From Bacteroidales bacterium (lineage in GTDB: Bacteria; Bacteroidota; Bacteroidia; Bacteroidales; WCHB1-69): a DNA stretch of 64,000 nucleotides. Where the stretch lies: the NCBI GenBank assembly GCA_024400635.1, contig JAKSMI010000002.1, forward strand, positions 1 through 64,000. The letters run 5' to 3'. The notes under the pieces were generated by a model. It ran no database searches, was not told where the DNA came from, and saw only the letters and a list, made by a program, of their open reading frames with translations. The translations under genes and the position numbers were made by a program. This document shows positions 2,804 through 25,052 of the stretch, piece by piece (position 1 is the stretch's first letter; each line of letters opens with the position of its first letter).

Positions 2804-3014
2804 AATTTCAATATTTAGATTGCAAAAATACAATTATTATTTAAAAATGAATATTATTTCTTATTGATTTTATCAATATATTTCTAAGATAAATTAGATG
2901 TAATTTGTATAAATCCATGCATTATTTTTGCAGCGTCAATCATTCGGAAAAATCCATGAAAAAACTATGAATGAGAGACATAATATTTATAATACAATAA
3001 TAAAAACAAAAACC
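2804..3014. promoter_or_regulatory. Divergent promoter region between the LysR regulator and hcp
   Basis: Two -7 elements of the Bacteroidota type face outward. The minus strand has TATTTTTG at 2823-2830, giving a short leader for the regulator. The plus strand has TATTTTTG at 2923-2930, giving a leader of roughly 75 bases for hcp. The 90 bases between them are AT-rich and hold the likely regulator binding site. The motif ATTGATTTTATCAAT at 2862-2876 is an inverted repeat of the size LysR proteins bind, and ATTGATTTTATCAAT recurs at 4666-4680 just before the ferritin gene. Confidence 0.6.
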
Positions 3015-4664
3015 ATGAAAACTCAAATGTTTTGCTTCCAATGCCAGGAAACAGCAAAAAACACCGGCTGCACCATTGCCGGTGTTTGCGGCAAAAAAGC
3101 TCAGACAGCAGCAGCAATGGACATGCTTCTGTTCGTCACCCGGGGAATATCTGTCATCAGTACGACTTTAAGGGACAAGCACATCCCATTCTCAGACAAA
3201 GTGGACGAATTCGTACTTGATGCCTTATTCACAACTATCACCAACGCCAATTTTGATACTTCTGAAATCATGACCAAAATCCAGCACGGATTTGACTTGC
3301 GTGATAATCTTGTAAAAATTGCTAAGAAAAATAGCATTGAAATACCTGATGTAGAAGCTGTTTATTGGCATGGCCCTATTTCCAGCTACACTCAAAAAGC
3401 ATCAGAAGTTGGTGTCCTGCGCACAGAAAATGAGGACATCCGCTCTTTGAAGGAACTTATCACTTATGGTTTGAAAGGCATGGCCGCTTATTTGAGCCAC
3501 GCTCGAAATCTTGGCTTTAGAGATGCTAATTTGGATGCTTACATTCAACGTACTCTATCCGATATTTGTACCAAGCAATTATCTTTCGATGACTTGTTTT
3601 CAATAGTGCTACAGACAGGTGAAATGGGCGTGAAAGCCATGGCTTTGCTCGATACCGCTAACACTTCATCATTTGGCAATCCCGAAACCAGCAAGGTGAA
3701 TCTGGGCGTGGGAAAGCGCCCCGGAATTCTTGTCAGCGGCCATGATTACCACGACTTAGAAATGCTTCTGGAACAAAGCATAAATACCGGCGTTGATATT
3801 TATACCCATGGGGAAATGCTGCCCGCACACTACTATCCTCTCTTTAAAAAATATCCTCACCTGGTGGGCAACTACGGCGGCTCATGGTGGCACCAGAAGG
3901 ATGAATTCGCACGCTTCAACGGACCCATACTTTTTACCACCAACTGCATTGTTCCACCTGTGGATGGATCGGTTTACAAAGAACGGATGTTCACTACCAA
4001 TTCCTCCGGTTATCCCGGATGCAGACACATTGAATGTGGTGAAAATGGCAAAAAGGACTTCTCTGAAATCATTGCCATAGCCAGACATTGTGGCAGCCCA
4101 CAAGAAATTGAATCTGGTCATATTATCGGCGGCTTCGCACACAATCAAGTGGAACAAATTGCTGACAAAATCGTAGATGCGGTGAAAAGTGGAAAAATCC
4201 GCAAGTTTGTGGTTATGGCCGGCTGCGACGGACGTATGCCCAGTCGCAATTACTACAGTGAATTCGCACGCAGGCTTCCCAACGATTGTGTCATCCTTAC
4301 CGCTGGTTGTGCCAAATATCGCTACATCAAGATGCCTCTCGGAAACATCAACGGAATTCCAAGGGTGCTCGATGCCGGCCAGTGCAACGATTCCTACTCT
4401 TTAGTATTAACGGCTATTTTACTTCGTGATGCGTTTAAATTACAGGATATCAATCAATTGCCTGTTATTTATAACATTGCTTGGTATGAACAGAAAGCCG
4501 TAATCGTTCTTTTGGCCTTGCTTTCATTAGGCTTAAAAAATATTCATATAGGCCCAACTCTACCCGCCTTTTTATCACCAAAAGTAGTTCAAATTCTATC
4601 AGAAAAATGCAGTTTAAATTCTATCACAACTGTTGATGAAGATATAGATAATTTCAATATATAA
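3015..4664 (+). CDS. hcp: Hybrid cluster protein (hydroxylamine reductase-type)
   Basis: The 549-residue protein starts MKTQMFCFQCQETAK. The start at 3015 is chosen because upstream ATGs fall in or next to the promoter and would add an unusual extension. Cysteines 7, 10, 19 and 25 (C-x2-C-x8-C-x5-C) match the short N-terminal cluster motif of anaerobe-type Hcp. Further landmarks are TNCIVPP, SGYPGCRHIEC, MAGCDGRMPSRNYYSEFA, TAGCAKYRY and LDAGQCNDSYS, which hold the hybrid-cluster ligands. Hcp was first described as a hydroxylamine reductase and is now viewed mainly as an NO reductase and protein S-nitrosylase in the cytoplasm. It heads a stress operon with ferritin and superoxide reductase. 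No Hcr reductase gene lies nearby. Confidence 0.97.
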   Translation: MKTQMFCFQCQETAKNTGCTIAGVCGKKAQTAAAMDMLLFVTRGISVISTTLRDKHIPFSDKVDEFVLDALFTTITNANFDTSEIMTKIQHGFDLRDNLVKIAKKNSIEIPDVEAVYWHGPISSYTQKASEVGVLRTENEDIRSLKELITYGLKGMAAYLSHARNLGFRDANLDAYIQRTLSDICTKQLSFDDLFSIVLQTGEMGVKAMALLDTANTSSFGNPETSKVNLGVGKRPGILVSGHDYHDLEMLLEQSINTGVDIYTHGEMLPAHYYPLFKKYPHLVGNYGGSWWHQKDEFARFNGPILFTTNCIVPPVDGSVYKERMFTTNSSGYPGCRHIECGENGKKDFSEIIAIARHCGSPQEIESGHIIGGFAHNQVEQIADKIVDAVKSGKIRKFVVMAGCDGRMPSRNYYSEFARRLPNDCVILTAGCAKYRYIKMPLGNINGIPRVLDAGQCNDSYSLVLTAILLRDAFKLQDINQLPVIYNIAWYEQKAVIVLLALLSLGLKNIHIGPTLPAFLSPKVVQILSEKCSLNSITTVDEDIDNFNI

Positions 4665-4717
4665 TATTGATTTTATCAATAAATTTTCAATAATATTAAC
4701 CATAAAAACAAACAGCT

Positions 4718-5236
4718 ATGTTAAACAGTAAAATTATCGGTCTGCTGAATGACCAAATCAACAAAGAATTGTATTCAGCCTATCTCTACCTGGACATGAG
4801 CAATTATTTTGAACACAAAGGGCTTTGCGGATTTGCCAACTGGTATTACATCCAAGCCCAGGAAGAACGCGACCACGCAATGCTCATTTACAAATACCTG
4901 CACAACAATGACGTAAAAGTATCTCTTTTGCCCATTGCTAAACCCGACAAAACATTCAATAATGACTTGTCTGTGCTCGAAGAAGCTCTTCGTCACGAAG
5001 AATACGTTACCGCACTGATTCATAAGATTTATGCTGAAACCGAACTTTGCAACGACTACCGGACACGAGAATTCATCAGTTGGTTTGTCACTGAACAGGA
5101 TGAAGAGGAAACAAATGCCCGCGACATGATTAACAAACTTGAACTTTTTGGAACGGACGGTTGTGGACTGTATCTACTCAACAAAGAACTTGCTAAACGT
5201 GAATACGAAGCTCCCAAAGGTGTTAACATCGAATAA
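4718..5236 (+). CDS. ftnA: Non-haem ferritin
   Basis: The 172 residues form a typical bacterial ferritin subunit: a four-helix bundle starting MLNSKIIGLLNDQINKELYS, with ferroxidase residues visible in NKELYSAYLYLDMSNYF (Glu17) and QAQEERDHAM (Glu50, His53), and later Glu in YVTALIHKIYAETE and TEQDEEE. It stores iron in a 24-mer cage and removes ferrous iron that would fuel Fenton chemistry. It lies 53 bases after hcp. The gap contains the same ATTGATTTTATCAAT inverted repeat (4666-4680) seen in the regulator-hcp intergenic region, so it may have its own control point. No haem-binding Met of bacterioferritin was looked for in detail; length and motif favour Ftn. Confidence 0.96.
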   Translation: MLNSKIIGLLNDQINKELYSAYLYLDMSNYFEHKGLCGFANWYYIQAQEERDHAMLIYKYLHNNDVKVSLLPIAKPDKTFNNDLSVLEEALRHEEYVTALIHKIYAETELCNDYRTREFISWFVTEQDEEETNARDMINKLELFGTDGCGLYLLNKELAKREYEAPKGVNIE

Positions 5237-5292
5237 AACACCACATTGAAAAAACAATTAAATCGATTTTTAACCATTAAAAACAAAAAATT

Positions 5293-5673
5293 ATGAGAAC
5301 AACATTTTATCGCTGCAATATTTGTGGCAACGTAATTATCAAAACTTCCGATTCCGGTGTTCAAGTTGAATGCTGCAGCGAATATATGGAAGAACTGGTT
5401 CCAAAAACCAACAACGAAGGCTTAGAAAAACACGTTCCTTTTGTCACCAAAATTGATGACAATACCTGGAAAGTGGAAATCGGAAGCACTCATCATCCTA
5501 TGCTGAAAGAACACCACATCGAATTCATCTACCTGGAAAGTTCCAATGGCGGACAAATTGTTTATTTGAAACCAGGACAAGAACCTGTGGCGATTTTTTA
5601 CACTAAAGAAAAGCCGACTGCATTTTATGAATATTGTAATGTCCACGGTTTGTGGGGAATAGATATTGTATAA
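5293..5673 (+). CDS. dfx: Desulfoferrodoxin (superoxide reductase, 2Fe type)
   Basis: The 126-residue protein has an N-terminal desulforedoxin domain with C-x2-C (YRCNICGN) and a Cys-Cys pair (VECCSEY) that bind the structural rubredoxin-like iron. The superoxide reductase domain follows, with EKHVPF (Glu and His ligand), THHPM, EHHIEF and the C-terminal CNVHGLW that supplies the Cys and final His ligands of the active-site iron. It reduces superoxide to hydrogen peroxide without making oxygen, which suits an anaerobe. It is last in the hcp-ferritin-dfx run and is followed at once by a strong terminator. Confidence 0.97.
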   Translation: MRTTFYRCNICGNVIIKTSDSGVQVECCSEYMEELVPKTNNEGLEKHVPFVTKIDDNTWKVEIGSTHHPMLKEHHIEFIYLESSNGGQIVYLKPGQEPVAIFYTKEKPTAFYEYCNVHGLWGIDIV

Positions 5674-5690
5674 AAATTACGTAATCAGCA

Positions 5691-5720
5691 AAAAGGGACG
5701 AAATACTCGTCCCTTTTTTT
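5691..5720 (+). terminator. Rho-independent terminator after the stress operon
   Basis: Stem GGGACGA (5695-5701) pairs with TCGTCCC (5707-5713) around a five-base loop. It is preceded by four A and followed by seven T. Confidence 0.9.
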
Positions 5721-5784
5721 GTGTCCTTTTTTTCATTCTCCATTTTTTTGAATACAATTTTTAAAATCAATGAAAATTATCATC

Positions 5785-5812
5785 TTGACAAAACGATTTT
5801 TGTTTAAATTTG
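5785..5812 (+). promoter_or_regulatory. Promoter of purC
   Basis: A perfect Bacteroidota -7 element TAAATTTG lies at 5805-5812, with a TTG upstream element at 5785-5787. It predicts transcription starting near 5820, about 26 bases before the purC ATG. Confidence 0.7.
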
Positions 5813-5845
5813 CACCTTTAAAATGATTATTTAAAAATATATTGT

Positions 5846-6784
5846 ATGACTGCTTTAACTAAAACCGATTATCACTTTCCTGGTCAACAAAAGGTTTACC
5901 ACGGAAAAGTTAGAGACGTTTACACCATTAATGACAAATTAGTAATGGTCGCCACTGACCGTATTTCCGCTTTTGATGTCATTCTTCCCAAAGGAATTCC
6001 GTGCAAAGGTCAAATATTGAATCAAATTGCCGCCAAATTTTTGGATGCGACGGCTGACATTTGTCCCAACTGGAAACTTTCCACTCCCGATCCAATGGTT
6101 ACCGTTGGACTTTGCTGCGAAGGTTTTCCCGTTGAAATGATTGTTCGCGGCTATTTGTGCGGCAGCGCTTGGCGCAGCTACAAAAACGGTGCCCGCGAAA
6201 TCTGCGGCGTGAAATTGCCGGAAGGAATGCGTGAAAACCAAAAGTTTCCTCAGCCCATCATCACTCCTACCACCAAGGCCGAACAAGGATTGCATGATGA
6301 AGATATTTCCAAAGAAGAAATCCTGGCTCGCGGTTTGGTTAGCCCTGAAGATTACGCCATTTTGGAAAAATACACGTTGGCCTTATTCCAACGCGGCACC
6401 GAAATTGCAGCACAAAAAGGTCTGATTTTGGTAGATACCAAATACGAATTTGGCAAACATAACGGCAAGATTTATTTGATTGACGAAATCCACACTCCGG
6501 ATTCTTCCCGTTATTTTTATGCCGACGGATACGAAGAAAAGTTTGCCAAAGGCGAAGCTCAACGTCAACTTTCAAAGGAATTTGTCCGCGAATGGCTGAT
6601 GGAAAACGGTTTTCAAGGCAAGGAAGGACAGCAAGTTCCCGAAATGACTCCCGAAATCGTCAACAACATCACCAATCGTTATATTGAGTTGTACGAACAT
6701 ATCACGGGCGACAAATTCCAAAAATGCGAAGATGCCGACTTGGCCCAACGCATTGAAAAAAATGTGACCGATTTCTTGAAATAA
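5846..6784 (+). CDS. purC: Phosphoribosylaminoimidazole-succinocarboxamide synthase
   Basis: The 312-residue protein belongs to the longer class of SAICAR synthetases. Hallmarks are [11 protein letters not shown] (nucleotide-binding loop), [45 protein letters not shown] and [15 protein letters not shown]. It joins CAIR to aspartate with ATP in de novo purine synthesis in the cytoplasm. The start follows directly on the predicted promoter and matches the family N-terminus. An MFS gene follows after only 20 bases, so the two are probably cotranscribed. The reason for that pairing is unclear. Confidence 0.97.
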
Positions 6785-6804
6785 TAATTTCAAACTTTAT
6801 ATTT

Positions 6805-8469
6805 ATGACTGAAAAACTACAAACTTTGAGAGACAACGCCGCCATCAGATGGATTGCGTTGTTGCTGTTGGCGTTGGCTATGTTCTGCGCCTACATTTTT
6901 ATGGACATCCTTTCCCCTATTAAAGAGTTGATGGAATCAACCCGTGGTTGGGACTCCAAGGCTTTCGGTACGATGGAAGGTGCAGAGACTTTCTTGAACG
7001 TATTCGTGTTCTTCCTGATTTTTGCCGGTATCATCTTGGACAAGATGGGTGTTCGTTTCACCGCTATCCTTTCCGGCGCCGTAATGCTTACAGGTGGGTT
7101 AATTAAGTTTTACGCTATTTCCGAGTATTTCATCGGTAGTTCTATGGAAACTTGGTTTACCAACAACCTCAACTGGCACACTGGAATTGGTTTCATCGAT
7201 GATGTTTTGCCATTCTATCAGGGAATGCCCGCATCGGCGAAACTTGCTGCCATCGGCTTTATGATTTTCGGTTGTGGTGCTGAAATGGGCGGTATCACTG
7301 TCTCACGTGGTATTGTGAAATGGTTTAAGGGACGTGAAACCGCTTTGGCTATGGGTTCCGAAATGGCATTGGCCCGTTTGGGTGTAGCCACTTGTATGAT
7401 TTTCTCACCTTTCTTCGCCAAACTGGGTGGAGAAATACACGTTGACAACTCAGTCAAATTCGGTGTTGTCCTCCTCTGCATCGCACTTATGATGTTCATC
7501 ATCTATTTCTTTATGGATAAGAAATTGGATGCTCAAACTGGTGAAGCTGAAGAACAAGACGATCCATTCAAAATCAGCGACATCGGCAAGATTCTCTCCA
7601 GCCTTGGTTTCTGGTTAGTTGCTTTGCTTTGCGTACTCTACTATTCCGCTATTTTCCCATTCCAAAAATATGCCGTCAATATGCTGCAATGCAATTTGAC
7701 CCTTGTTCCCGGTAAAGGTTTCTGGGCAAGTAACGCCGTTACTATTGTTCAATATATTATTATGTTATTGGTTGCTATCGGCGCATTTGCAAGTAACTTC
7801 GCTAAGAAAAAACCAGCTAAATTCGGTTTGATGGCGATGGCAGTGGTTGCTTTGGTTGTTTATTGCTATATGGGTTATATGCGTGGCACGGCAGAAACCA
7901 TCTTCGCCGTATTTCCATTGTTGGCTGTGGCCATTACTCCTATTTTGGGTAACTATGTTGACCACAAGGGCAAAGCTGCTTCTATGCTGATGATTGGTTC
8001 TATCCTTTTGGTTATCTGTCACTTGACATTTGCTTTCATTCTGCCCGAGTTCCAAGGGAATGCAGTAGGCGGTACTATCGTGGCTTACGTCACCATCCTC
8101 GTTTTAGGGGCATCTTTCTCTTTGGTTCCTGCCGCTTTATGGCCTTCCGTTCCAAAGTTGGTTGACGAAAAAATCATCGGTTCTGCTTACGCTTTGATTT
8201 TCTGGATTCAGAATATCGGTTTGTGGCTCTTCCCACTTTTGATTGGCAATGTACTGGAATCAACCAATGCCAACAATGCAGCCGTTGTTGCTGCAAAACA
8301 AGCCATCGAAGCTGGTGAACAAGGCGTTTTCGTACCTTACGACTACAAATGGCCTCTCGTGATGTTGGCTTGCCTGGGTATTGCCGCATTGCTCATCGGT
8401 GTTTACCTCAAGGCCGTTGACAAGAAAAAAGGTCTCGGTTTGGAAGAACCTAACATTAAAGCTGAATAA
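6805..8469 (+). CDS. MFS transporter (12 membrane segments)
   Basis: This 554-residue inner-membrane protein has about twelve hydrophobic helices. Two loops carry periplasm-like insertions, after the third helix (around residues 106-135) and near residue 495, where the stretch is rich in Ala and Asn. The motif ILDKMGVRFTAILSG after helix 2 is a degenerate form of the MFS loop GxxxDrxGrR, and a basic/acidic loop splits the two halves near residue 240. The general layout resembles the MFSD1-like carriers common in Bacteroidota, whose substrates are mostly unknown. It lies 20 bases behind purC and ends at a terminator. No substrate can be assigned. Confidence 0.85.
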   Translation: MTEKLQTLRDNAAIRWIALLLLALAMFCAYIFMDILSPIKELMESTRGWDSKAFGTMEGAETFLNVFVFFLIFAGIILDKMGVRFTAILSGAVMLTGGLIKFYAISEYFIGSSMETWFTNNLNWHTGIGFIDDVLPFYQGMPASAKLAAIGFMIFGCGAEMGGITVSRGIVKWFKGRETALAMGSEMALARLGVATCMIFSPFFAKLGGEIHVDNSVKFGVVLLCIALMMFIIYFFMDKKLDAQTGEAEEQDDPFKISDIGKILSSLGFWLVALLCVLYYSAIFPFQKYAVNMLQCNLTLVPGKGFWASNAVTIVQYIIMLLVAIGAFASNFAKKKPAKFGLMAMAVVALVVYCYMGYMRGTAETIFAVFPLLAVAITPILGNYVDHKGKAASMLMIGSILLVICHLTFAFILPEFQGNAVGGTIVAYVTILVLGASFSLVPAALWPSVPKLVDEKIIGSAYALIFWIQNIGLWLFPLLIGNVLESTNANNAAVVAAKQAIEAGEQGVFVPYDYKWPLVMLACLGIAALLIGVYLKAVDKKKGLGLEEPNIKAE

Positions 8470-13918: not shown

Positions 13919-14236
13919 TCATTCAAACAAAATGTTTGAATACCGATTTTTGACATTTCGACCATGGTAGGCAACAATCATAGGAACTTCTAATCCATCG
14001 CTCTTTGTGCGATTGTTCTCCCATTGTAGTGGCTGTAAATTAGAAATGTCATCGTCACCACCTTTAGCTTTTGGAATAATATGGTCAATTTCCCAACCAT
14101 ATTCTGAATGTTTACCATAATCGGCAAAACAAATTAAGGCACCACAATTATCAAAGCGCCAATCTCTTTCGTCCCTCCCAGAAACTTTTTCTCCTTTTTC
14201 CCATACAAGTTGAGCAAGTTCTCTTTTATTTGTCAT
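13919..14236 (-). CDS. Small HNH endonuclease-domain protein
   Basis: The 105 residues carry an HNH core, YGWEIDHIIPKAKGGDDDISN followed by LQPLQWENNRTKSD, with the two conserved Asp-His residues, the central Asn and the last Asn. The first part (KVSGRDERDWRFDNCGALICF) resembles the strand that leads into HNH nucleases of the McrA-like type. Such small single-domain proteins occur alone or as parts of mobile elements and restriction systems. It is convergent with the protease and lies 467 bases downstream of the DprA-like gene on the same strand. It may or may not belong to that cluster. The palindrome at 14253-14270 sits just before its start. Confidence 0.85.
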   Translation of the reverse strand: MTNKRELAQLVWEKGEKVSGRDERDWRFDNCGALICFADYGKHSEYGWEIDHIIPKAKGGDDDISNLQPLQWENNRTKSDGLEVPMIVAYHGRNVKNRYSNILFE

Positions 14237-14702: not shown

Positions 14703-15647
14703 CTAATAAAATGATCGAGAAAAAATGTCCTCTATTTTTGATGAAAACTTGTCATAATCTGTTTTCCCTTGTATTGGAACAATATACGATAGTTCTATCT
14801 TCTTCATAGTCTTTAGGCCAACGAATTTTGCAACACCTTCTTTTTGCTCTGAAATAATAACGCGATTTGCTTCAAACTTTTCTGACTGATATTCTTCAGA
14901 AGACGGGAAATGGATTACTCCTAAAACTCTTGGTAGTTTTGAAAAAGTTGCTAACGTATATTTAGAACCTCCGTTGATTCCACTCTGCACCAATATCAAC
15001 CCTTGAGATAACGCCGCTTGTATTCTACTTGCTTTACTTCCTGAATATTTGTCCTCCGGTTGTTGAGGTGGATATTCCGAAACAATTAAGCCACCAGCAT
15101 TGAGTACATCATCAATTATTTTTGCATGAGCCTTACTGCAAGTTTTTGTGTAATTTAATCCTCCAGAGATTATTCCTATGGCTTTTGGCGTAATTTTACC
15201 ATTATAATAAACAGAATGCTCGTCAATACCTTCTACCAACCCATTGCAAATAGCATATTCTTGGGAGAAATGTTCTCCAAGTCGTTCCGCAATTTTGTCA
15301 CCTAAAGGAGTACTGTGACGAGTACCAATAATCGCAACAACCTTGTTCAACAGCGTTTCGTTACCTTTAATATATAACACGGCAGGAGGATCGTTTATTT
15401 CCAACAATAGTCTAGGGTATTCCGAAGATAGACACGAAATAGGCTTTATACCAAAAGAATCGCAATCGGATAAAACTGTTTCCGCAAAATTTTCATAAAC
15501 AAAATATTCTGATAATGCATCTTCGTTTACTTCTTTGATAAAGCTTTTGCAATCATCACTATGCATTAGTCTTGACCTATTCTTTTTAAAGAAAGCAGGA
15601 CCAATACCTTTTACCTGTGTTAATATAATAATATCTTTCAGTTCCAT
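14703..15647 (-). CDS. DprA/Smf-like protein (SLOG Rossmann fold)
   Basis: The 314-residue protein has a helical N-terminus (TQVKGIGPAFFKK, helix-hairpin-helix-like), then the DprA signature YPRLLLEINDPPAVLYIKG. The Rossmann core follows, with VVAIIGTRHSTPLG (about residues 103-116), NGLVEGIDEHSVYYNG, GIISGGLN, GGLIVSEYPP and RIQAALSQGLILVQSG. True DprA loads RecA onto single-stranded DNA in transformation. The wider SLOG superfamily is also found in predicted anti-phage and nucleotide-signalling operons. The gene starts three bases after the upstream HAD/phosphoribosyltransferase stop and is the last of five genes pointing left. Its linkage to a kinase and receiver makes a role in conflict or stress signalling more likely than competence. 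Confidence 0.85.
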   Translation of the reverse strand: MELKDIIILTQVKGIGPAFFKKNRSRLMHSDDCKSFIKEVNEDALSEYFVYENFAETVLSDCDSFGIKPISCLSSEYPRLLLEINDPPAVLYIKGNETLLNKVVAIIGTRHSTPLGDKIAERLGEHFSQEYAICNGLVEGIDEHSVYYNGKITPKAIGIISGGLNYTKTCSKAHAKIIDDVLNAGGLIVSEYPPQQPEDKYSGSKASRIQAALSQGLILVQSGINGGSKYTLATFSKLPRVLGVIHFPSSEEYQSEKFEANRVIISEQKEGVAKFVGLKTMKKIELSYIVPIQGKTDYDKFSSKIEDIFSRSFY

Positions 15648-15650
15648 ATT

Positions 15651-16976
15651 TTATTGATTAGGAATGTCTATAATAAAGCCACAGCCATTTCCCCCGTATT
15701 CTGGTGGTGTACAAGAATAGAATCTATGACCATCACTTCTTCTTATCTTCGTTATCATAGGTTTGCCACAACTTGGACAAATTATGTCGTCATTGTTCAC
15801 AGCAAGAACCATTTGGAACATTGCTATAAATAATACATTCTTAGCGCCTTTTTCTTTCAATTTGTGAATTACGTGCCAAGCTGTAGCTCCTGTTGTTAAT
15901 TGGTCATCAAGCACAATAATGTTTTCCCCTTGTATTGAAATTGGTTGTTCCGATTCTCCGCCGAACAAGTCTATCACTTTTTCCATAGGGAGTGAAACCG
16001 ATAGAAATTGCTCAAGATAATCTTTACGTTCACTGTATAGGTTTCGGTTTCTCAAAGAACCTTGTGTATTATCACTCCATTTCAATAATTCTATCTTTGG
16101 AATGGTAGTTGACACTATATCAAAAACAGCCTTCATCTTATTTGCTGGAACAGTTGACGCCTTATCTGTCAAATAAGTAAAGTAATCCCATCCTTGATTC
16201 ATCACTGCCGGTTGGTTTATATACGAAGATATACCATTGGCCAAACTTTGCAAGAATTCCTCTGTTCTATTCGGGTTTGACATTTGATAATACTTGTCTG
16301 CCCTTGCATATTTATCGCAAGCTCCTTGTTCCTGTCTTGCTAAACAACGAATGCATGAATATGAGCCATCCATATATCTATTGTACGAGAATTTTATGGC
16401 AGATAATGATTGTCCACCAGCAAAAGATGATTCAATGGAATATAGGTTGTTTAATGGAGAGTCCAAGATTTTTTCCAACTCAGCAAAAGTTTTAATAGTA
16501 TAAGTGGGTCCCATCTTTTTGCTTGCCATTTCATCTCCGATTCCGTCCCTTTCATCTTTGATTTCATCAGTGACCTGATATGGCAATATCCAGCATGTCA
16601 ATGCACCAATTCTTCGACCTAACTCAATATCAAGCTTTGTATCTCCAATAACCATACAGTTCCCTTCCGTAACCATTTGTTTGTATTGAAGGTGTGTATC
16701 AAGGAAACTGTTTATTTTCATCGTGTTGGGTTTGTCGGCAAGAGACAAGGCTTCTAATCCAAACATCTCGGAAATAGGATTAACATAGTTAGGATGTGAA
16801 TCTGAAACAACAACAAGAGAGTCTCCTTTTTCTTTTCTCGAAGCAATAAACTTTTTTACACCTGCAAATACGGGAATTTGAGCAACAGGATAATCCTGCT
16901 GACCATCTTTATACGGTTTCCATCCTGGGTGAACTGTATTTATAAGAGTCCCATCAAGGTCTAAAAGAATTAGCAT
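15651..16976 (-). CDS. HAD phosphatase - phosphoribosyltransferase - zinc-ribbon fusion
   Basis: Starting at 16976 (MLILLDLDGTLIN) the protein has about 441 residues. A longer frame from 17036 overlaps the upstream gene and lacks support. Domain one is a HAD hydrolase: DLDGT nucleophile loop at the start, VVVSDSHP, and NCMVIGDTKLDIELGRR. The middle part has C-x2-C (IRCLARQ region) and is otherwise unclear. Domain two is a ComF-like phosphoribosyltransferase with the PRPP loop IIVLDDQLTTGATAWHVI. The C-terminus is a four-cysteine ribbon (CPSCGKP, then YSCTPP and CGF) like those of topoisomerases. Together it may make or break a phosphoribosyl compound. It sits between the receiver gene (11-base gap) and the DprA-like gene (3-base gap). 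Confidence 0.82.
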   Translation of the reverse strand: MLILLDLDGTLINTVHPGWKPYKDGQQDYPVAQIPVFAGVKKFIASRKEKGDSLVVVSDSHPNYVNPISEMFGLEALSLADKPNTMKINSFLDTHLQYKQMVTEGNCMVIGDTKLDIELGRRIGALTCWILPYQVTDEIKDERDGIGDEMASKKMGPTYTIKTFAELEKILDSPLNNLYSIESSFAGGQSLSAIKFSYNRYMDGSYSCIRCLARQEQGACDKYARADKYYQMSNPNRTEEFLQSLANGISSYINQPAVMNQGWDYFTYLTDKASTVPANKMKAVFDIVSTTIPKIELLKWSDNTQGSLRNRNLYSERKDYLEQFLSVSLPMEKVIDLFGGESEQPISIQGENIIVLDDQLTTGATAWHVIHKLKEKGAKNVLFIAMFQMVLAVNNDDIICPSCGKPMITKIRRSDGHRFYSCTPPEYGGNGCGFIIDIPNQ

Positions 16977-16987
16977 AGAGAATAGTT

Positions 16988-17938
16988 TTACAATTGTGCT
17001 TCCCAGTTGATGATTGTCAACAAGTCGTATAGACAACTTTTGAGCAAATATGGGGCTTTGCCCTCAAACGTGTCTTTGTCAACGACAAAAAGCGGCTGTT
17101 TCTCATCCCTATGAGAACCGTTGTTTAAAATTTCCGTGAGGGAGTGAAAAGCACGCTGAATGTAAATTGGAAAACGATTGCTGTTGTCTTCATCGTCTTT
17201 GCCTCTCTTTTTTTCACCAACATAACAACTTCTCACATTTATAGAATCTTTTTTCCCTTCATTCTTGAGGTATTCAGGATAATCGTTCATTAAGCCTACT
17301 TCTTCTATACGTTTGTAAAGATCAGATTCCACGATTTTTCTCATGTCATTATAGAGGCTGTAGTTTGTGTTCTCATCGTTGTACTCTATACAACGAATCA
17401 GTTTTAATATACTATTTATATTGTCTCGACTCCAACCAGCCCTTTCAATAAAATCTATAATGTTCTTGTATTTTGTATATATCGCATATATCTGCGAAGA
17501 ATTAGCTACTTTTTTTATGTCTTCAAACAACACTTTTGTATCGTCTGGTTTCATATATACCTCTTTTGTCTGCAAATCCGTGTCTTTAATAAAATATCTT
17601 TTTGCATCAGAAATCGTAACAGCATCTGCAGAAAACACGAATATGAATGGTTCAACACTATTTCCATGCTCCTTTCTAAAATTTTCAATCTTCCTTCTCA
17701 TGCTAAGATAGTCTTTATTTTCATTGCCTTCCGAGGCCTTATCATTTCTGACATCAAGAATGATGGCAATCCATTTTGAAGGATTTGCTACGATAGCATT
17801 ATAAGCTTCATCGTAAGTGGCAAAAGGAGTAATATCAATGCCTTCGTCGTAAGCACTATTGACTATTGAGTTACATAAATCCGTTTGGCTTCCATCTGGA
17901 TTTAAAATAAGGTCATCGACCCAGATTACGTTAATCAT
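16988..17938 (-). CDS. Response-regulator-like protein with receiver domain
   Basis: The first 140 of 316 residues form a receiver domain. The acidic pair is in VIWVDDL (Asp8, Asp9), the phosphoacceptor Asp62 in AIILDVRND, the switch Ser103 in FVFSAD and the conserved Lys130 in VYMKPDD. The receiver is longer than usual, with an insertion after Asp62. The rest is helical, shows no DNA-binding motif that I recognise, and may be an effector or partner-binding region. The ATG overlaps the kinase stop by four bases, so kinase and receiver form a cognate pair. With no HTH its output is probably protein contact, perhaps with the HAD/PRTase protein encoded next. Confidence 0.85.
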   Translation of the reverse strand: MINVIWVDDLILNPDGSQTDLCNSIVNSAYDEGIDITPFATYDEAYNAIVANPSKWIAIILDVRNDKASEGNENKDYLSMRRKIENFRKEHGNSVEPFIFVFSADAVTISDAKRYFIKDTDLQTKEVYMKPDDTKVLFEDIKKVANSSQIYAIYTKYKNIIDFIERAGWSRDNINSILKLIRCIEYNDENTNYSLYNDMRKIVESDLYKRIEEVGLMNDYPEYLKNEGKKDSINVRSCYVGEKKRGKDDEDNSNRFPIYIQRAFHSLTEILNNGSHRDEKQPLFVVDKDTFEGKAPYLLKSCLYDLLTIINWEAQL

Positions 17939-20331
17939 TTCTTTTCTATATTTAATATTGGCAATGAAATTCTAACACAAACCGCCCATCCGTTTTCGTC
18001 AATTGGCAAAGTGACTTCTCCACCCATTGCGTTGACGGTGTCTTTTACATCAGCTCCACCTATACCAGAGTGTCCCGTATTTCCGGCGATACCACCACGC
18101 TTAAAGTAATTATCACGTGCAAGTTCACTCATGGGTGCGCCATTGTTTTTGATGCAGAGAACACAGTTTCCGTTACCATCTTGTGTAATGGAAACTTCAA
18201 TTGTATAATCTCCTTTTGTCTTATCTACAAATCCATGACGAATTGCATTATCTACGATATTTCGCATGATGCTGCGAATCATATTTGAAGAACCATTGAC
18301 AATAATGTGTTCTTCTGGAACTTTTAGACTGAATTTGAAAAGTTCGCCAGATGCAGAATCTCTTACAAAATCTTTCACGACCGAAATGATGTCAACAGGC
18401 TTCAAATCATTCTTGTCTATTGTTCGAGTGAGATCCTGAAGACTTTCAGAAATAATATCAACGTCTCTGGATAAGCGTTCAAGTATTTTTGAAACTTTTT
18501 CGTTCTTGCCACGAATAGTGTTAAGTGTGACACCTTCAGGATGATTCTGAAACAATTTCAGAAATGCATCCAAATCAGTCTTCACCGGAACTAATTCATT
18601 TCTAATGCGATGCTTGATATTGCGGATATGCTCCTCGTTTAACCATGTCTTTTCTGCAAGGAGCTGTTCCAAAGCCCTTTCACGATCAACCACTGATGCA
18701 TTGATAAATTGTGCATCTTCAATTTCTTTACGCTGGATGTCCTTTGAAGGTATCTGTATAGAGCATTGAATGTGACCTGTCTTCATCTCTGGAGTAATTA
18801 ATATCTCATTCCCCGCATCATCGAAAATGTCACAGTCCGTATAATGGAAGCATTCTCGGTCATATGACGCGGAATCGAACAAGGATTCGAAGATGCCCTT
18901 TGCGTATAGAATGTACAAATATTCTGGGGTTAACAGCTCCGTATTCAAATCAAGTACAATAAACTGACCTCCTACGCATGCGGGACATTCAGAAGAGGCT
19001 TTTAAGAAAGCCACTTGAATCTTATCGTTACCAACGTAAAAAACCACTTTGTCTTCTGTGACGATTTTGAACCATCCGGAAATCTCACATACATCTAATT
19101 GTGAGCTTTCTTTTACGAAATTGGAAAGATTAGTCGGCATATCCTTCATTTGAAATACATGATATGCTCCAGAAATTTTCCTTTCCTCAACACCAGACTT
19201 GGGTACCGAGAACAAATCACGAAATGAATATGCCTTTCCTTTTTGACCAGGAATCAAATCAGATGCGGCATGAAAATCATAATCAACGCTTTCCACATCC
19301 GATTTTGACAGTTTTTGGTGCGCAGTTATCATGTTCTCATAACAAGAATTATGACCGCCTACAAAATTGAATTTTGTGTTCTCTGTCTGGCTTGAGGAAT
19401 AAAGGATGTAAATATCTCCACTTTCAAGTCCACAATCTCCACTAAGGAATATGTCAAGTAGGTTTTCATCAATCAGTTTCTTTCTGAAAGCAAACATTTC
19501 TTTGGATGCAAGTATGCGCTTGTCGTCAAGCAAGATAATGCGTCTTGAATATTTACCTTTGTCAGTAGGGTCAGTGAGCTTTGAATAAAAAGATTCAAAT
19601 TCTTCCACTGTTTGGCATGGACAAGAAGACACCGGCACAATGACGAGAGAATATTTCCCATTTTGAGGAATCAAAGCTTCAGCATTAAAACGCATCACTT
19701 TGGACTCTGACTCATTCAAATCGCGAATAATTTTTGAAATAAGAAAATCATATTCATCAGACATCATTTTAGTGCTGTCTGAATAAAAGTTAGTGTCTAT
19801 TTCAAGGACATCTTTGCCATTCCAGCCATCGTATCCTAAAATAAGATTTTTCGCTCCATCGAATGCAAAATCAAGAGAACGATTGTGAAGGAGATATGGG
19901 GAGTAGGCATCAATAACCATTTTGTTGACAACCTGATTAAAATCCAATGCCAATTCACGAAGTTGCAAAGAATTGACCAATGCCAAATCAGATGGATTGT
20001 CTTTTGCAAACTCGTTTTTCCAACATGCAAACAATACGGCAATACAGAAATCTTCGTCCATACGTTTGGGGATGTTTCGAGAAACCAACCTCTCACGAGA
20101 TCTCTTCATTTTCTCCTCAATATAACTAGAAGAATAATTTTCTGGATCATTTTCCATATTTTTTCTGACGACTTCCAATCTGCTTTCAATTTTGGCTTTA
20201 GTCTCTTTCAACCTCTTTTCACCAATTATAGTGAACATGAAATCACGATTCTGATACTGCTCGCGAAGAGTTTCAATGTAGAGTTTGCACTTGAGATCTT
20301 GAACTGTCAAATTTTCCATATCAATCAACAA
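17935..20331 (-). CDS. Soluble histidine kinase fused to type I restriction M/S-like regions
   Basis: This 798-residue protein has no membrane segment. The C-terminal third is a histidine kinase: dimerisation helix with candidate His574 (NIKHRIRNEL), N-box RNIVDNAIRHG (about 690-700), KNNGAP (G1-like, usual Asp replaced) and GHSGIGG (G2, about 753-759). The rest is unusual. Residues about 260-325 (LLDDKRILASKEMFAFRKKL, then IDENLLDIFL) look like the C-terminal part of HsdM-type N6 methylases. The catalytic NPPF position seems to be VPVS, so no methylation is expected. Residues about 385-560 follow the pattern of an HsdS target-recognition domain (TPEYLYILYAKG, then QIPSKDIQRKEIEDAQFI). A second Met at 20319 is an alternative start. 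Promoter candidate: minus strand TACTTTTG at 20366-20373. Confidence 0.78.
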   Translation of the reverse strand: MLIDMENLTVQDLKCKLYIETLREQYQNRDFMFTIIGEKRLKETKAKIESRLEVVRKNMENDPENYSSSYIEEKMKRSRERLVSRNIPKRMDEDFCIAVLFACWKNEFAKDNPSDLALVNSLQLRELALDFNQVVNKMVIDAYSPYLLHNRSLDFAFDGAKNLILGYDGWNGKDVLEIDTNFYSDSTKMMSDEYDFLISKIIRDLNESESKVMRFNAEALIPQNGKYSLVIVPVSSCPCQTVEEFESFYSKLTDPTDKGKYSRRIILLDDKRILASKEMFAFRKKLIDENLLDIFLSGDCGLESGDIYILYSSSQTENTKFNFVGGHNSCYENMITAHQKLSKSDVESVDYDFHAASDLIPGQKGKAYSFRDLFSVPKSGVEERKISGAYHVFQMKDMPTNLSNFVKESSQLDVCEISGWFKIVTEDKVVFYVGNDKIQVAFLKASSECPACVGGQFIVLDLNTELLTPEYLYILYAKGIFESLFDSASYDRECFHYTDCDIFDDAGNEILITPEMKTGHIQCSIQIPSKDIQRKEIEDAQFINASVVDRERALEQLLAEKTWLNEEHIRNIKHRIRNELVPVKTDLDAFLKLFQNHPEGVTLNTIRGKNEKVSKILERLSRDVDIISESLQDLTRTIDKNDLKPVDIISVVKDFVRDSASGELFKFSLKVPEEHIIVNGSSNMIRSIMRNIVDNAIRHGFVDKTKGDYTIEVSITQDGNGNCVLCIKNNGAPMSELARDNYFKRGGIAGNTGHSGIGGADVKDTVNAMGGEVTLPIDENGWAVCVRISLPILNIEKK

Positions 20332-20365
20332 ATTAAATTAAACATTGCTAAACTGAATTGCGCTG

Positions 20366-20436
20366 CAAAAGTACATCAACTTTTTTATTCTCGTATCGGA
20401 TTTCTCTCATTATATGGTTCCTTTGTGAGAGGAACC
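20366..20436 (-). promoter_or_regulatory. Promoter and inverted repeat upstream of the kinase gene
   Basis: On the minus strand TACTTTTG (20366-20373) fits a -7 element 35 bases before the kinase ATG. Upstream lies the inverted repeat GGTTCCT (20416-20422) and AGGAACC (20430-20436) around seven bases. It could be an operator, for instance for the WYL protein, or a weak terminator of the WYL gene. Confidence 0.45.
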
Positions 20437-20449
20437 GTTTTGTTGTAAT

Positions 20450-21520
20450 TTATTGGTATTGAATATATAAATTTTCTACAATGTCTTTAATTTGAGACCT
20501 TAAAGATTCTGGCTTTACCACTTCTACGTACTGCCCGTATGCTAAGATTTTTCCTCTCAGCTCTCGGTTTGGTTCTATCAGTAATGAGATTTCGCCATAA
20601 TATTGCCCGTTATACTCTCCGTATGGAAGCGTCTCTTTCTGTGAATGATGAAATGGCTTAGTAAGAATGAGGCCATGTTGATATTCAGTTTTTGTTCTTA
20701 TAATCACAATTTCTTCTTGAGCATCTCTCTCGTGTGTGACACCTACTATATTGTTAAAATGATTCTGATAAAAACCCTTTTCAGGAGGAATATATTCAAT
20801 ATTATCCAATACTGCCATTTCACCTTTTATTCTATCCAATGGAATGTTATATGCGTGATATGGTGCTCTGTTTGCTTCTCCTAATACAAACCATCTCCCG
20901 TTATATTCTTTGAGAAACTGTGGATGAAAAACAATCTCAAGAGAATCTTGACCGAAACTCTGATATGATATTCGCAATACCTGCTTATCGGTTATCGCTC
21001 GATGGAGGATGGGAAGAAGTTCTATATTTGTTAAGTTTTGCTCTAAACTAGACCGTATAAAATTGTTTCCTTCTATCTTTTGTTTATTCGTATCCAAAAG
21101 TAATTGTGTATTTTCGAAAAAAGACGAGAACCAACTTGGCGGAACTAATCCTGCGGTGTCTTTGCAGAAAATCACATAATCTTCAATGGTTTTTTGAACA
21201 ACTGCTTTGCGCTCATCGGCCAAAGGATCATCAATTGTACCTATATATTTCTTGGCAGCTCCTTTGCCCGTCTTCCCGTTATCTATTATACTATTTGGGC
21301 AAACCGAGTTGATAGCACGGACAACTTCGGGAAAAGCTTTCTTAAGCTCGCCATAACCAGGCTCTTTTGAATATGAAACTTTGTCGTAGTATTCCTTATT
21401 CCGATTATAGTATATAAGCAAAATGTCACACAATGAAACAAATTCTCGCTTCATAAGTTCATTATAAATAATGTGTGCAAATTTGACTTTAAGACCATTG
21501 CCAATAAATATATTACTCAT
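20450..21520 (-). CDS. WYL-domain transcriptional regulator
   Basis: The 356-residue protein has an N-terminal helical part and a clear WYL domain near residues 165-235 (ILHRAITDKQVLRISYQSFG, then FHPQFLKEYNGRWFVLGEAN). The C-terminal WCX-like region follows, ending EVVKPESLRSQIKDIVENL. WYL proteins sense small ligands or nucleic acids and often control defence islands (for example BrxR/CapW types). It is 119 bases upstream of the kinase gene, same strand. The gap has a separate promoter and an inverted repeat, so it may repress the kinase operon. Its own -7 element is minus-strand TATATTTG at 21571-21578. The N-terminus resembles no standard HTH that I can name with confidence. Confidence 0.88.
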   Translation of the reverse strand: MSNIFIGNGLKVKFAHIIYNELMKREFVSLCDILLIYYNRNKEYYDKVSYSKEPGYGELKKAFPEVVRAINSVCPNSIIDNGKTGKGAAKKYIGTIDDPLADERKAVVQKTIEDYVIFCKDTAGLVPPSWFSSFFENTQLLLDTNKQKIEGNNFIRSSLEQNLTNIELLPILHRAITDKQVLRISYQSFGQDSLEIVFHPQFLKEYNGRWFVLGEANRAPYHAYNIPLDRIKGEMAVLDNIEYIPPEKGFYQNHFNNIVGVTHERDAQEEIVIIRTKTEYQHGLILTKPFHHSQKETLPYGEYNGQYYGEISLLIEPNRELRGKILAYGQYVEVVKPESLRSQIKDIVENLYIQYQ

Positions 21521-21570: not shown

Positions 21571-21578
21571 CAAATATA
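21571..21578 (-). promoter_or_regulatory. Promoter -7 element of the WYL gene
   Basis: The minus strand reads TATATTTG, matching TAnnTTTG, about 50 bases before the ATG at 21520. Confidence 0.6.
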
Positions 21579-23481: not shown

Positions 23482-23603
23482 TTGAGTTTTTTCCAGAATT
23501 GATGTTTTTTATATCATTTTGGAAAAAACTCAATTGAGATTTTTCCAAAATTAGTGTTTTTTATATGGTTTTGGAAAAAACTCAGATTTATTTATTATCT
23601 TTG
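23482..23603 (+). repeat. Tandem 52-bp hairpin repeats and promoter before an ATPase gene
   Basis: Two tandem units, 23482-23533 and 23534-23585, each have inverted ends. TTGAGTTTTTTCCA pairs with TGGAAAAAACTCAA in the first, and the second is nearly the same, around a T-rich middle. The -7 element TATCTTTG follows at 23596-23603, so the second hairpin covers the -33 position. Like the 23-bp repeats at 9.9 kb, they are well placed to be operators. Confidence 0.8.
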
Positions 23604-23627
23604 CACTTTCAAAAAATAAAATTTGAT

Positions 23628-25052
23628 ATGCAGAAAATAATTGGCAGAGAGGCGCAAATAAAGCAGTTGAATGAATATATTTATTCGTCAAATGCTGAAT
23701 TTGTGGCCATTTATGGTCGCCGTCGTGTGGGAAAAACCTACTTGGTGAATCAATTGTACGGAAAGGATTTCTCATTTTCCGTAACGGGAATATTGTCAGG
23801 TACTTACGATGAACAAATGACTTCTTTTGTGGAGGCACTCAAAGATTTCGGATGCGATGTACCTGCTGTGCCTGAAAATTGGATGAATGCTTTTATTTTG
23901 CTGAAGAACTTACTGAAAACCAAGATTTCAAAAGAAAAGCCGCTGATAATCTTTATAGATGAGTTGCCGAGTTTTGATACTCAACGTTCGGGATTTGTTC
24001 GTGCATTGGGTTACTTTTGGAACAGTTGGGCTTGTATGCAAGACAACTTGACGTTAATTGTATGCGGTTCTGCCACGTCGTGGATGATCAACAACATTAT
24101 CAATAACAAAGGTGGTTTGCATAATAGGATTACTCACGAAATACATCTTCATCCTTTTTCACTGAAAGAAACAGAAAAACTTTTACAAAATAATGAATTT
24201 CAATGGAATAGAAAACAAATACTCTATGCTTATATGGCAATGGGCGGAATTCCATACTATTTGTGTATGCTGAGAAAAGATGAAAGTTTCGCGCAAAATA
24301 TCGACCGCCTGTTCTTTTCCGAAGATTCAACTTTGCGTCGCGAGTATAAACGATTGTATGAAACCTTGTTTAATTCCCCGGCAATCTATATGGAAATCGT
24401 GCGCATTTTGGCTACAAACAAAACGGGATTGTCACGTGAAGATATTGCAAATCAATTGAATATAGATTCTTCTGGAAATTTAAGCACTAAACTGGAAGAC
24501 CTCATCAATTGTGACATCATTAGAAAATATTGTGTTAGAACAAAGAAAATAAAATCTACTTCCGCAATCTATCAGTTAGTGGATTTCTTTTCGCTTTTTT
24601 ATCTAACTTTCAATCCGAAAGCTGAAAGAGAAAACAATTATTGGCAAAACCATTTGGGCAATCCCGAATTGAACACTTGGATGGGCTTGGCTTTTGAAAA
24701 GGTATGCCTGTCTCACATTGTTCCCATCAAAAAAGCATTGAAAATAGACGGGATTGCCACTCAACATTATTCCTGGAGAAGCAAACAGAAAGAAAACCGC
24801 ACACAAATAGATTTAATCATTGAGCGTGCCGATAAAATTGTAAATCTTTGTGAAATAAAGTTTTCCAATGAAAAATATTTGTTGAAGAAAGAAGAAGCGG
24901 AAAAGTTGCAGCATAGAATTGCAACTTTCCGTGCGGAAACGGAACTGGCTTGTCCCATTTGGTTGACTATGATTACCACCAGCGGTCTGGCACCGTCTGT
25001 TTACAACGCAGATGTGGTAAAGGAACTGACATTGACCGATTTATTTGAATAA
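23628..25052 (+). CDS. ATP-binding protein with AAA and DUF234-like nuclease-fold domains
   Basis: The start at 23628 (MQKIIGREAQIKQLN) is chosen because the longer frame from 23565 begins inside the hairpin repeat, upstream of the promoter. The 474-residue protein has Walker A GRRRVGKTYL (about residues 29-38), Walker B PLIIFIDELPSF, a sensor segment LIVCGSATSWM, a helical lid, a winged-helix-like part (GLSREDIANQL) and a C-terminal segment TQIDLIIERADKIVNLCEIKF. The last shows the D...E-x-K pattern of PD-(D/E)XK folds. This is the AAA/DUF234 type related to archaeal ATPases, abundant and uncharacterised in Bacteroidota. It stands alone, followed by a broken gene and an IS remnant. Confidence 0.88.
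   Translation: MQKIIGREAQIKQLNEYIYSSNAEFVAIYGRRRVGKTYLVNQLYGKDFSFSVTGILSGTYDEQMTSFVEALKDFGCDVPAVPENWMNAFILLKNLLKTKISKEKPLIIFIDELPSFDTQRSGFVRALGYFWNSWACMQDNLTLIVCGSATSWMINNIINNKGGLHNRITHEIHLHPFSLKETEKLLQNNEFQWNRKQILYAYMAMGGIPYYLCMLRKDESFAQNIDRLFFSEDSTLRREYKRLYETLFNSPAIYMEIVRILATNKTGLSREDIANQLNIDSSGNLSTKLEDLINCDIIRKYCVRTKKIKSTSAIYQLVDFFSLFYLTFNPKAERENNYWQNHLGNPELNTWMGLAFEKVCLSHIVPIKKALKIDGIATQHYSWRSKQKENRTQIDLIIERADKIVNLCEIKFSNEKYLLKKEEAEKLQHRIATFRAETELACPIWLTMITTSGLAPSVYNADVVKELTLTDLFE

Follow-up and report, generated by a model that had tools for sequence, protein, structure and literature searches.

WYL regulators of the BrxR/CapW kind set the transcription of other defence loci, and in ShosTA, PsyrTA and RqlHI a phosphoribosyltransferase (PRTase) toxin is paired with a DprA-like antitoxin, ShosTA being a known anti-phage system whose two genes adjoin each other. 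In Detocs, the third protein is an effector joined to a receiver, a PNP in the best-described case. The accessible part of PMC11249213 presents Detocs as a three-gene defence family built on a defensive two-component system, in which histidine kinase and receiver are linked to an immune effector. CapK/CapS, according to the available portion of PMC13373217, consists of a GHKL kinase with HTH and STAS domains and a STAS-wHTH repressor, is located upstream of diverse immune operons, was shown to be triggered by single-stranded DNA, and has also been co-opted into toxin-antitoxin systems.

Here, we analysed a 64-kb stretch of DNA from a Bacteroidales bacterium (the window), in which five genes on the minus strand form a cluster with the following features.

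20450..21520, minus strand: WYL/WCX transcription regulator, first gene (356 aa)
17935..20319, minus strand: histidine kinase (794 aa from ATG 20319; the ORF from TTG 20331 has 798 aa)
16988..17938, minus strand: predicted receiver protein (316 aa)
15651..16976, minus strand: ShosT-like HAD-phosphoribosyltransferase with a C4 zinc ribbon (441 aa)
14703..15647, minus strand: DprA-like (SLOG), ShosA-like protein (314 aa)
21571..21578 (read 21578-21571), minus strand: promoter-like -7 box TATATTTG before the WYL gene, pattern TAnnTTTG
20366..20373 (read 20373-20366), minus strand: promoter-like -7 box TACTTTTG in the 118-base gap before the kinase gene, pattern TAnnTTTG
20414..20438, no strand assigned: 11-pair hairpin between the WYL and kinase genes, T-run on the plus strand, possible operator

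As in Detocs, a kinase and a predicted receiver are present; however, a PNP domain occurs in none of the five proteins, the kinase sensor appears HsdM/HsdS-like, and the enzyme belongs to a separate ShosTA-like pair. CapK/CapS is alike in that a GHKL-type kinase precedes immune operons of various kinds and in its DNA trigger, shown there and predicted here, but the candidate substrate here has a predicted receiver fold with a conserved Asp, and the kinase carries a restriction-type front and gave no STAS or HTH match in domain scans. Type I restriction-modification enters the comparison because the kinase front is, through the kinase family, homologous to HsdM plus a target-recognition domain, whereas the NPPF motif is lost, the output is a kinase, and the HsdR nuclease/translocase is found in none of the five proteins.

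Layout and domain content of the cluster

The five same-strand genes were confirmed where the original prediction had placed them. Its overlap of 4 bases between kinase and receiver and the subsequent gaps of 11 and 3 also stood, but the distance from the WYL gene to the kinase TTG is 118 bases, not 119. Among 17 kinase homologues, 13 begin at the column of ATG 20319, although kinase residues are numbered here from TTG 20331; the PRTase start was set at the M at 16976, which is invariant in 37/37 homologues, whereas the mechanical ORF begins at TTG 17036.

The -7 promoter consensus of Bacteroidota is TAnnTTTG. Since the two boxes fit it, a separate kinase promoter in the WYL-kinase gap, as predicted, is plausible; the pattern occurs 100 times in the 64 kb with both strands counted, approximately one per 1280 bases per strand. 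The hairpin in the same gap has its T-run on the plus strand and is thus not a terminator for the operon strand, and it is weak because the region holds 4 terminator-like sites against 4.7 expected. The proposed flanking mobile-element debris was not borne out: none of the ten other window proteins scanned is encoded by a mobile-element gene, and no unusual G+C was seen.

Of the predicted domains, WYL, HATPase_c, HAD and DprA held. Pfam WYL matched the first protein at 1.5e-7, over the cut-off, with WCX just under it (5.8e-5), and PADLOC WYL gave 1.1e-19; the kinase matched Pfam HATPase_c at 1.2e-10, the HAD-PRTase matched HAD_2 at 1.1e-5 (over the cut-off), and the DprA-like protein matched DNA_processg_A at 1.4e-32. 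The PRTase domain, however, gave only sub-cut-off matches, located at its PRPP loop, in Pfam and NCBIfam, and Pfam Response_reg found no match in the window receiver and one in 19 family members (E 0.16).

The kinase, the receiver and the PRTase-DprA pair

Domain boundaries and key residues were placed as follows.

19249..19941, minus strand: kinase residues 131-361, degenerate HsdM-like N6-methyltransferase domain, predicted by family profile comparison
18697..19248, minus strand: kinase residues 362-545, HsdS-like target-recognition domain, predicted from an HsdS-type target-recognition fold
18610..18612, minus strand: kinase His574, predicted phosphorylation site (H in 30/31 rows with the column)
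17480-17938, minus strand: receiver domain, residues 1-153, predicted from invariant residues and predicted fold
within 16988..17938, minus strand: helical C-terminal domain of the receiver protein, residues 155-316
17753..17755, minus strand: receiver Asp62, predicted phosphoacceptor from residue conservation
15882..15914, minus strand: PRPP-binding loop VLDDQLTTGAT of the PRTase, from alignment of homologues

The wider kinase family, together with the predicted fold, shows the front half of the kinase to share ancestry with the subunits by which type I restriction enzymes read DNA. The family profile matched HsdM over residues 131-361 with probability 99.9 and E 1.8e-36 (whole kinase, E 7.1e-35), and its match to HsdS was significant when 33 kinase rows and 12 HsdS sequences were used, with no signal against four HsdS sequences only (probability 0.5). 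The window-type subfamily alone gave no HsdM or HsdS signal (probabilities 1.3 and 4.6), and it joined the rest of the family with probability 98.3 and E 1.6e-14. The predicted fold of the front has low overall confidence (mean pLDDT 62). The methyltransferase motif NPP[FYW] is absent from the window kinase, which has IVPVSS at that place, and a PDB sequence search with the kinase middle returned two matches (E 0.15 and 0.76) that were taken as chance. In the available portions of the open-licence literature, no histidine kinase with a methyltransferase/specificity front, or one beside type I genes, is described. We also considered that, at loci where HsdS lies beside the kinase, the kinase recognition domain duplicates the specificity of that HsdS; however, its best blastp partners were HsdS proteins of other loci, the own-locus HsdS ranking lower, and therefore no shared specificity was visible.

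Two-component residues are conserved in both proteins, namely His, N and G boxes in the kinase (H574, N695 and a GxG motif family-wide) and DD, D, S/T and K in the receiver. The sole row lacking H at kinase position 574 belongs to L073, whose ORF was not recognised as a kinase, and two further rows are incomplete. The assignment of the third protein as a receiver is a prediction from its invariant residues and modelled fold. It has no recognised DNA-binding domain, a PDB sequence search with it returned nothing, no relative was confirmed in viral contigs, and its profile matched once in the whole genome, a search that might overlook a second receiver if it is distant.

The fourth and fifth genes are similar to ShosTA. 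PADLOC ShosA matched the DprA-like protein at 2.7e-36 over residues 9-265, and PsyrA matched it at 8.9e-17; ShosT matched the HAD-PRTase at 9e-7, confined to approximately 44 residues at the PRPP loop, and by hhalign the P2_4C9 ShosT (probability 44.5) and the SopEPhi PRTase (probability 89.0) aligned only around this loop. The genes adjoin each other, with 3 bases between them, as in ShosTA, and the P2_4C9 ShosT (PADLOC ShosT 3.4e-294) is of similar length (424 aa) with, by eye, an HAD-like front. The HAD active-site motifs are nevertheless intact and invariant in the window-type PRTase but look degenerate, by eye, in P2_4C9; the window PRTase, unlike ShosTA, has a C-terminal C4 zinc ribbon; the order is PRTase then DprA here and the reverse in phage P2_4C9; and the window pair has an upstream sensor module of kinase and receiver, which the accessible literature on ShosTA does not mention.

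A single-sequence search with the HAD-PRTase in 393 genomes of the order found its own genome and short matches in four others (E 4e-5 to 8e-4), and a profile search in 345 genomes of the phylum found its own genome and one partial match, in G681. Profile search of genome contigs found at least 12 PRTase loci. The HAD motifs, the DDQ.T loop and four Cys are invariant in 13 HAD-PRTase sequences, the others being 40-86% identical to the window protein, and among the matches listed DprA lies immediately 3' of the PRTase in 10/12 loci; of the remaining two, one is cut or both are incomplete as cut or fragmentary loci. No relative was confirmed in viral contigs, and neither plasmids nor a PDB sequence search gave a match.

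Recurrence and exchange of modules

Two other genomes (L018 and L020) also carry WYL, kinase, receiver, PRTase and DprA in this order, which is thus more than chance. The receivers of these loci are only 24-25% identical and branch separately in the receiver tree, so that the order persists with a very different kinase-receiver pair. The kinase lies immediately 5' of the receiver in 20 of the 22 other loci, as expected of the single unit that the original prediction had proposed. Its five-gene set stood in part: a conserved order exists and, given L018 and L020, the kinase-receiver pair does not always occur alone, but mostly it lacks PRTase-DprA. None of 22 loci from the order and phylum draws, and none of 8 from the family draw, had both, and among the matches listed the kinase-receiver pair accompanied PRTase-DprA in 2/10 loci. 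A system with this set is, as predicted, absent from the available portions of the open-licence literature.

Elsewhere, the kinase-receiver pair is followed by the genes of type I restriction, by Shedu or by RmuC. Among the downstream neighbours that were identified, type I hsdM is the most frequent (directly downstream in 7/22 loci), and a Shedu nuclease, an AAA_15 gene and a UvrD gene were also found. PRTase-DprA, for its part, occurs behind other modules. The five genes were therefore rejected as one obligate unit, because each half also occurs alone or with other partners, and the L027 genome carries a WYL-kinase-receiver locus apart from its PRTase pair. Two exchangeable modules meet in the window cluster.

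A candidate alarm mechanism and its alternatives

Our tentative reading, which we put slightly short of an even chance, is that the cluster raises an alarm leading to abortive infection, a restriction-type DNA reader that lacks a nuclease being coupled by phosphorelay to a ShosTA-like pair. We infer the sensing of DNA, the transfer of phosphate, the toxicity and the role in defence. The degenerate methyltransferase and recognition domain would bind DNA but leave it unmethylated, and the kinase would be switched on by a site or a state of modification that is characteristic of phage DNA. Phosphate would then pass from His574 to Asp62, and the phosphorylated receiver, via its helical C-terminal domain, might act on the DprA-like antitoxin or on the PRTase directly, a receiver-toxin link that this reading predicts, so that the PRTase would be released from its DprA-like partner. 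The freed enzyme would attack a PRPP- or nucleotide-linked target, and growth would stop, with the WYL protein presumably setting operon transcription as BrxR/CapW-kind regulators do at other defence loci. The original interpretation thus survives in part, in its kinase-receiver unit, its gene order and its DNA-associated kinase (the front appears DNA-reader-like, as seen via the wider kinase family), but not in its mobile debris; nor is a phosphoribosyl metabolite sensed by the DprA-like protein the nearest reading, because ShosTA is a known pair to which the final two genes are similar.

It is possible, albeit doubtful, that kinases with a dead restriction methyltransferase and recognition domain constitute a new class of immune signalling, which would recognise the sequence or the modification of phage DNA and, by way of the receiver, set off interchangeable effectors, be it a complete type I restriction enzyme or, in this cluster, a ShosTA-like suicide pair. 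If so, the part of restriction enzymes that reads sequence would serve bacteria as a phosphorelay sensor, separating restriction-type recognition from DNA cutting, and DNA sequence or methylation would be the candidate ligand of the kinase family. This would account for the kinase-receiver pairs that precede several type I restriction operons in the genomes sampled. Some ShosTA-like pairs would thereby gain a trigger, and abortive infection would be tied to restriction-type recognition in a way open to direct test.

The WYL gene adjoins the kinase in 13 of the 22 other loci and is one gene away in a fourteenth, and WYL-kinase-receiver is kept while the downstream genes vary widely. Such an arrangement would also suit a pair that acts on transcription only, an explanation we hold to be rather unlikely: the phosphorylated receiver would bind the WYL repressor and raise the downstream immune operon, PRTase-DprA having its own trigger, for which CapK/CapS, a DNA-activated kinase and repressor ahead of diverse immune operons, provides a precedent (available portion of PMC13373217). 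However, among the matches listed, WYL lies 5' of PRTase-DprA without the kinase-receiver pair in L019, L021, L023, L025 and L027, and thus does not need the receiver; furthermore, the WYL gene is not beside the kinase in 8/22 loci (L070 ends near the kinase) and is on the opposite strand in 3 loci of the 22.

The alarm reading lets the receiver act through the downstream pair. That the receiver is itself the effector, through a C-terminal HEPN-like RNase or a phosphorylation-set dimer switch, with PRTase-DprA a separate addiction module sharing the operon by chance, seems improbable. The conservation of R200 (32/32 rows with the column) and H276 (31/31) would fit it, as would a weak DUF4145 match in 2/19 family members (best E 0.016), DUF4145 belonging to the HEPN group; but the C-terminal domain has no strong Pfam match, a distance of 76 residues separates the R from the H, unlike the RX4-6H motif of HEPN RNases, and the same domain precedes restriction systems, which need no further effector.

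We regard it as very improbable that the cluster serves no defence, with the kinase tracking how the cell's own DNA is methylated and regulating neighbouring genes, and PRTase-DprA stabilising the region as an ordinary toxin-antitoxin. The prevalence of hsdM downstream would suit this, as would the precedent mentioned for two-component control of type I restriction-modification in Helicobacter pylori (accessible part of PMC12323599), but the downstream partners include the Shedu nuclease, AAA_15 and UvrD genes, and a pair resembling anti-phage ShosTA lies downstream in two loci plus the window.

Layout of the five-gene cluster

The cluster and the start codon of its phosphoribosyltransferase gene are located as follows:

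14703-21520, minus strand: WYL regulator, histidine kinase, receiver, HAD-phosphoribosyltransferase (HAD-PRTase) and DprA-like genes
16976, minus strand: ATG start codon of HAD-PRTase

The gene spacing in the original prediction held, except that the gap after the WYL gene is 118 bases rather than 119. A hairpin lies between the WYL and kinase genes, and promoter-like boxes resembling the known Bacteroidota-type consensus precede both. The G+C content of the cluster (0.366, versus 0.383 for the window) is ordinary, as about one-third of 6.8-kb stretches are equally low or lower. A small HNH endonuclease gene (1.5e-8; 13919-14236) lies just downstream of the DprA-like gene on the same strand, and an ATPase_2/DUF234 protein (1.6e-18; 23565-25052) adjoins a WG-repeat protein past the WYL end.

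Two exchangeable modules

The cluster is a meeting of two modules, WYL-kinase-receiver and PRTase-DprA, each of which is exchangeable. A receiver profile was searched against 393 genomes from the order and 395 from the phylum, draws that partly overlap and both include the window's own genome; besides the window, 12 and 10 loci, respectively, were found at E 1e-8 or better. Of these 22 loci, 20 had a same-strand kinase directly preceding the receiver (split in two ORFs in L066); L083 carried an ORF with weak HATPase_c (0.0026), and no kinase was recognised beside the L073 receiver. WYL adjoined the kinase in 13 loci and was one gene off in L067. A type I hsdM directly followed in seven (L069, L074, L075, L076, L077, L079 and L080), while the partner was Shedu in L070 and AAA_15 plus a UvrD helicase in L081. 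None of the 22 loci carried HAD-PRTase, and partners may go unnoticed in L063, L066, L070 and L073 because those stretches stop soon past the receiver. The family draw contained the receiver in 9 of 104 genomes, the window's own included. All eight other loci had the kinase and six had WYL beside it; hsdM followed directly in three and one gene further in another, HsdR occurred in one, RmuC in two and an unassigned gene in one, and none of the eight had HAD-PRTase.

By scanning genome contigs, at least 12 HAD-PRTase loci were found. The L028 contig stops within the PRTase, and in L029 a 75-aa fragment is all that is present, with no DprA; the remaining 10 loci among the matches listed carry DprA immediately behind PRTase (truncated by the end of the contig in L026). 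L018 and L020 had kinase-receiver upstream of the pair, L021 an AAA_15 ATPase with a weakly PLD-like protein, L027 DUF4062-HATPase_c_4 and L025 WYL alone; no sensor-like gene was recognised upstream in L022 or L026. L023 carried type I restriction genes and an AAA_15 ATPase by Pfam, and L024 the same set, judged from similar lengths, order and the HsdM motif. In both (L023:643-12212), PRTase-DprA ends a type I restriction operon, 49 (L023) and 3 (L024) bases past a 993/992-aa gene that is HsdR by Pfam in L023. Seven of these 10 loci (L018, L019, L020, L021, L023, L025 and L027) had WYL upstream in the same orientation, at a distance of several kb in L019 and L023. In L019, a reverse transcriptase nearest retron RTs (PADLOC RT-Protease_XI, 5.2e-96) and 300- and 938-aa genes (2637-7769) sit between WYL and PRTase-DprA, making it a candidate retron using the same pair.

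On the PRTase tree (the ten loci among the matches listed plus the window), upstream type took 7 changes, versus 3 for kinase-receiver presence; on the receiver tree, built by a quick method with some long branches, PRTase state took 2. Furthermore, the L027 genome has a WYL-kinase-receiver locus elsewhere, apart from its PRTase. In other loci, the genes that follow WYL-kinase-receiver are those of type I restriction, Shedu or RmuC, and PRTase-DprA comes after a type I restriction operon, a reverse transcriptase or an AAA ATPase; type I restriction thus recurs beside both modules. Window-type receivers are rare (28 proteins found, versus 623 PRTases). Because only three loci showed the five-gene order, two separate associations underlie the putative functional tie of receiver and PRTase. 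A metagenome may hold a near-identical window-type cluster: the longest contig has 12163 bases for each of receiver P0001, PRTase P0029 and kinase P0149, which suggests that they may share one contig.

Relation of the PRTase-DprA pair to ShosTA

The PRTase-DprA half is related to a known kind and resembles the ShosTA anti-phage toxin-antitoxin pair, its PRTase being a possible ShosT. The DprA-like protein matched DNA_processg_A (1.4e-32) and the PADLOC ShosA model (2.7e-36); HAD-PRTase matched HAD_2 over the cut-off and ShosT at 9e-7, the latter confined to the PRPP loop region. Thirteen HAD-PRTases, the window's own and others with 40-86% identity to it that range from Bacteroidales to a cyanobacterial MAG, show no variation in HAD motifs D6, D8, G111-D112 and D116, in the four cysteines of the zinc ribbon or in the DDQ.T loop. 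The 424-aa ShosT of phage P2_4C9 likewise begins, by eye, with a HAD-like stretch, but one that has seemingly lost its catalytic residues. A DprA+PRTase system of P2-like phages, which may differ from that of P2_4C9, conferred protection from T7 and lambda, and the authors linked DprA homologues with the shosTA, syrTA and rqlHI antitoxins (PMC9122126). Among the matches listed, 14 of 120 PRTase homologues, P0033, P0036 and P0050 among them, exceed 500 aa (mostly 560-570 aa; P0130, 678 aa), with an additional C-terminal ~120 aa, helical-looking by eye.

Kinase reader part and proposed mechanism

The kinase is constructed like a type I restriction reader, with strong homology across the family and divergence in the window's own subfamily. 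In the simplest account, PRTase-DprA would be an abortive effector in need of a foreign-DNA trigger, which the kinase would supply without a nuclease; the binding to DNA, phosphotransfer, toxicity and defensive function that this implies are all predicted. Published work offers precedents for parts of this scheme: CapK, a GHKL kinase upstream of immune operons that is activated by single-stranded DNA and has relatives co-opted into toxin-antitoxin (PMC13373217); a type I system with embedded DarTG2 (PMC12255303); WYL regulators adjoining BREX and type I systems (PMC9122601); an Enterococcus faecium type I system with an adjoining kinase and response regulator, left unexplained there (PMC12323599); and Detocs, a defensive two-component system (PMC11249213). 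Fusions of Schlafen RNases with a minimal histidine kinase are mentioned for BREX loci (PMC12839542). A kinase whose front combines methyltransferase and specificity parts was described in none of the open-licence passages covered.

The L031, L035 and L036 kinases are almost double length (1463-1472 aa); that of L031 matches N6_Mtase over residues 921-1047 and Methylase_S over 1140-1223, behind ~900 unexplained residues. In the L070 and L071 kinases, the methyltransferase region is swapped for a stretch with CPVCNQNKRNHFP-like letters, by eye an HNH-type-looking motif; thus, even the reader part may be open to exchange.
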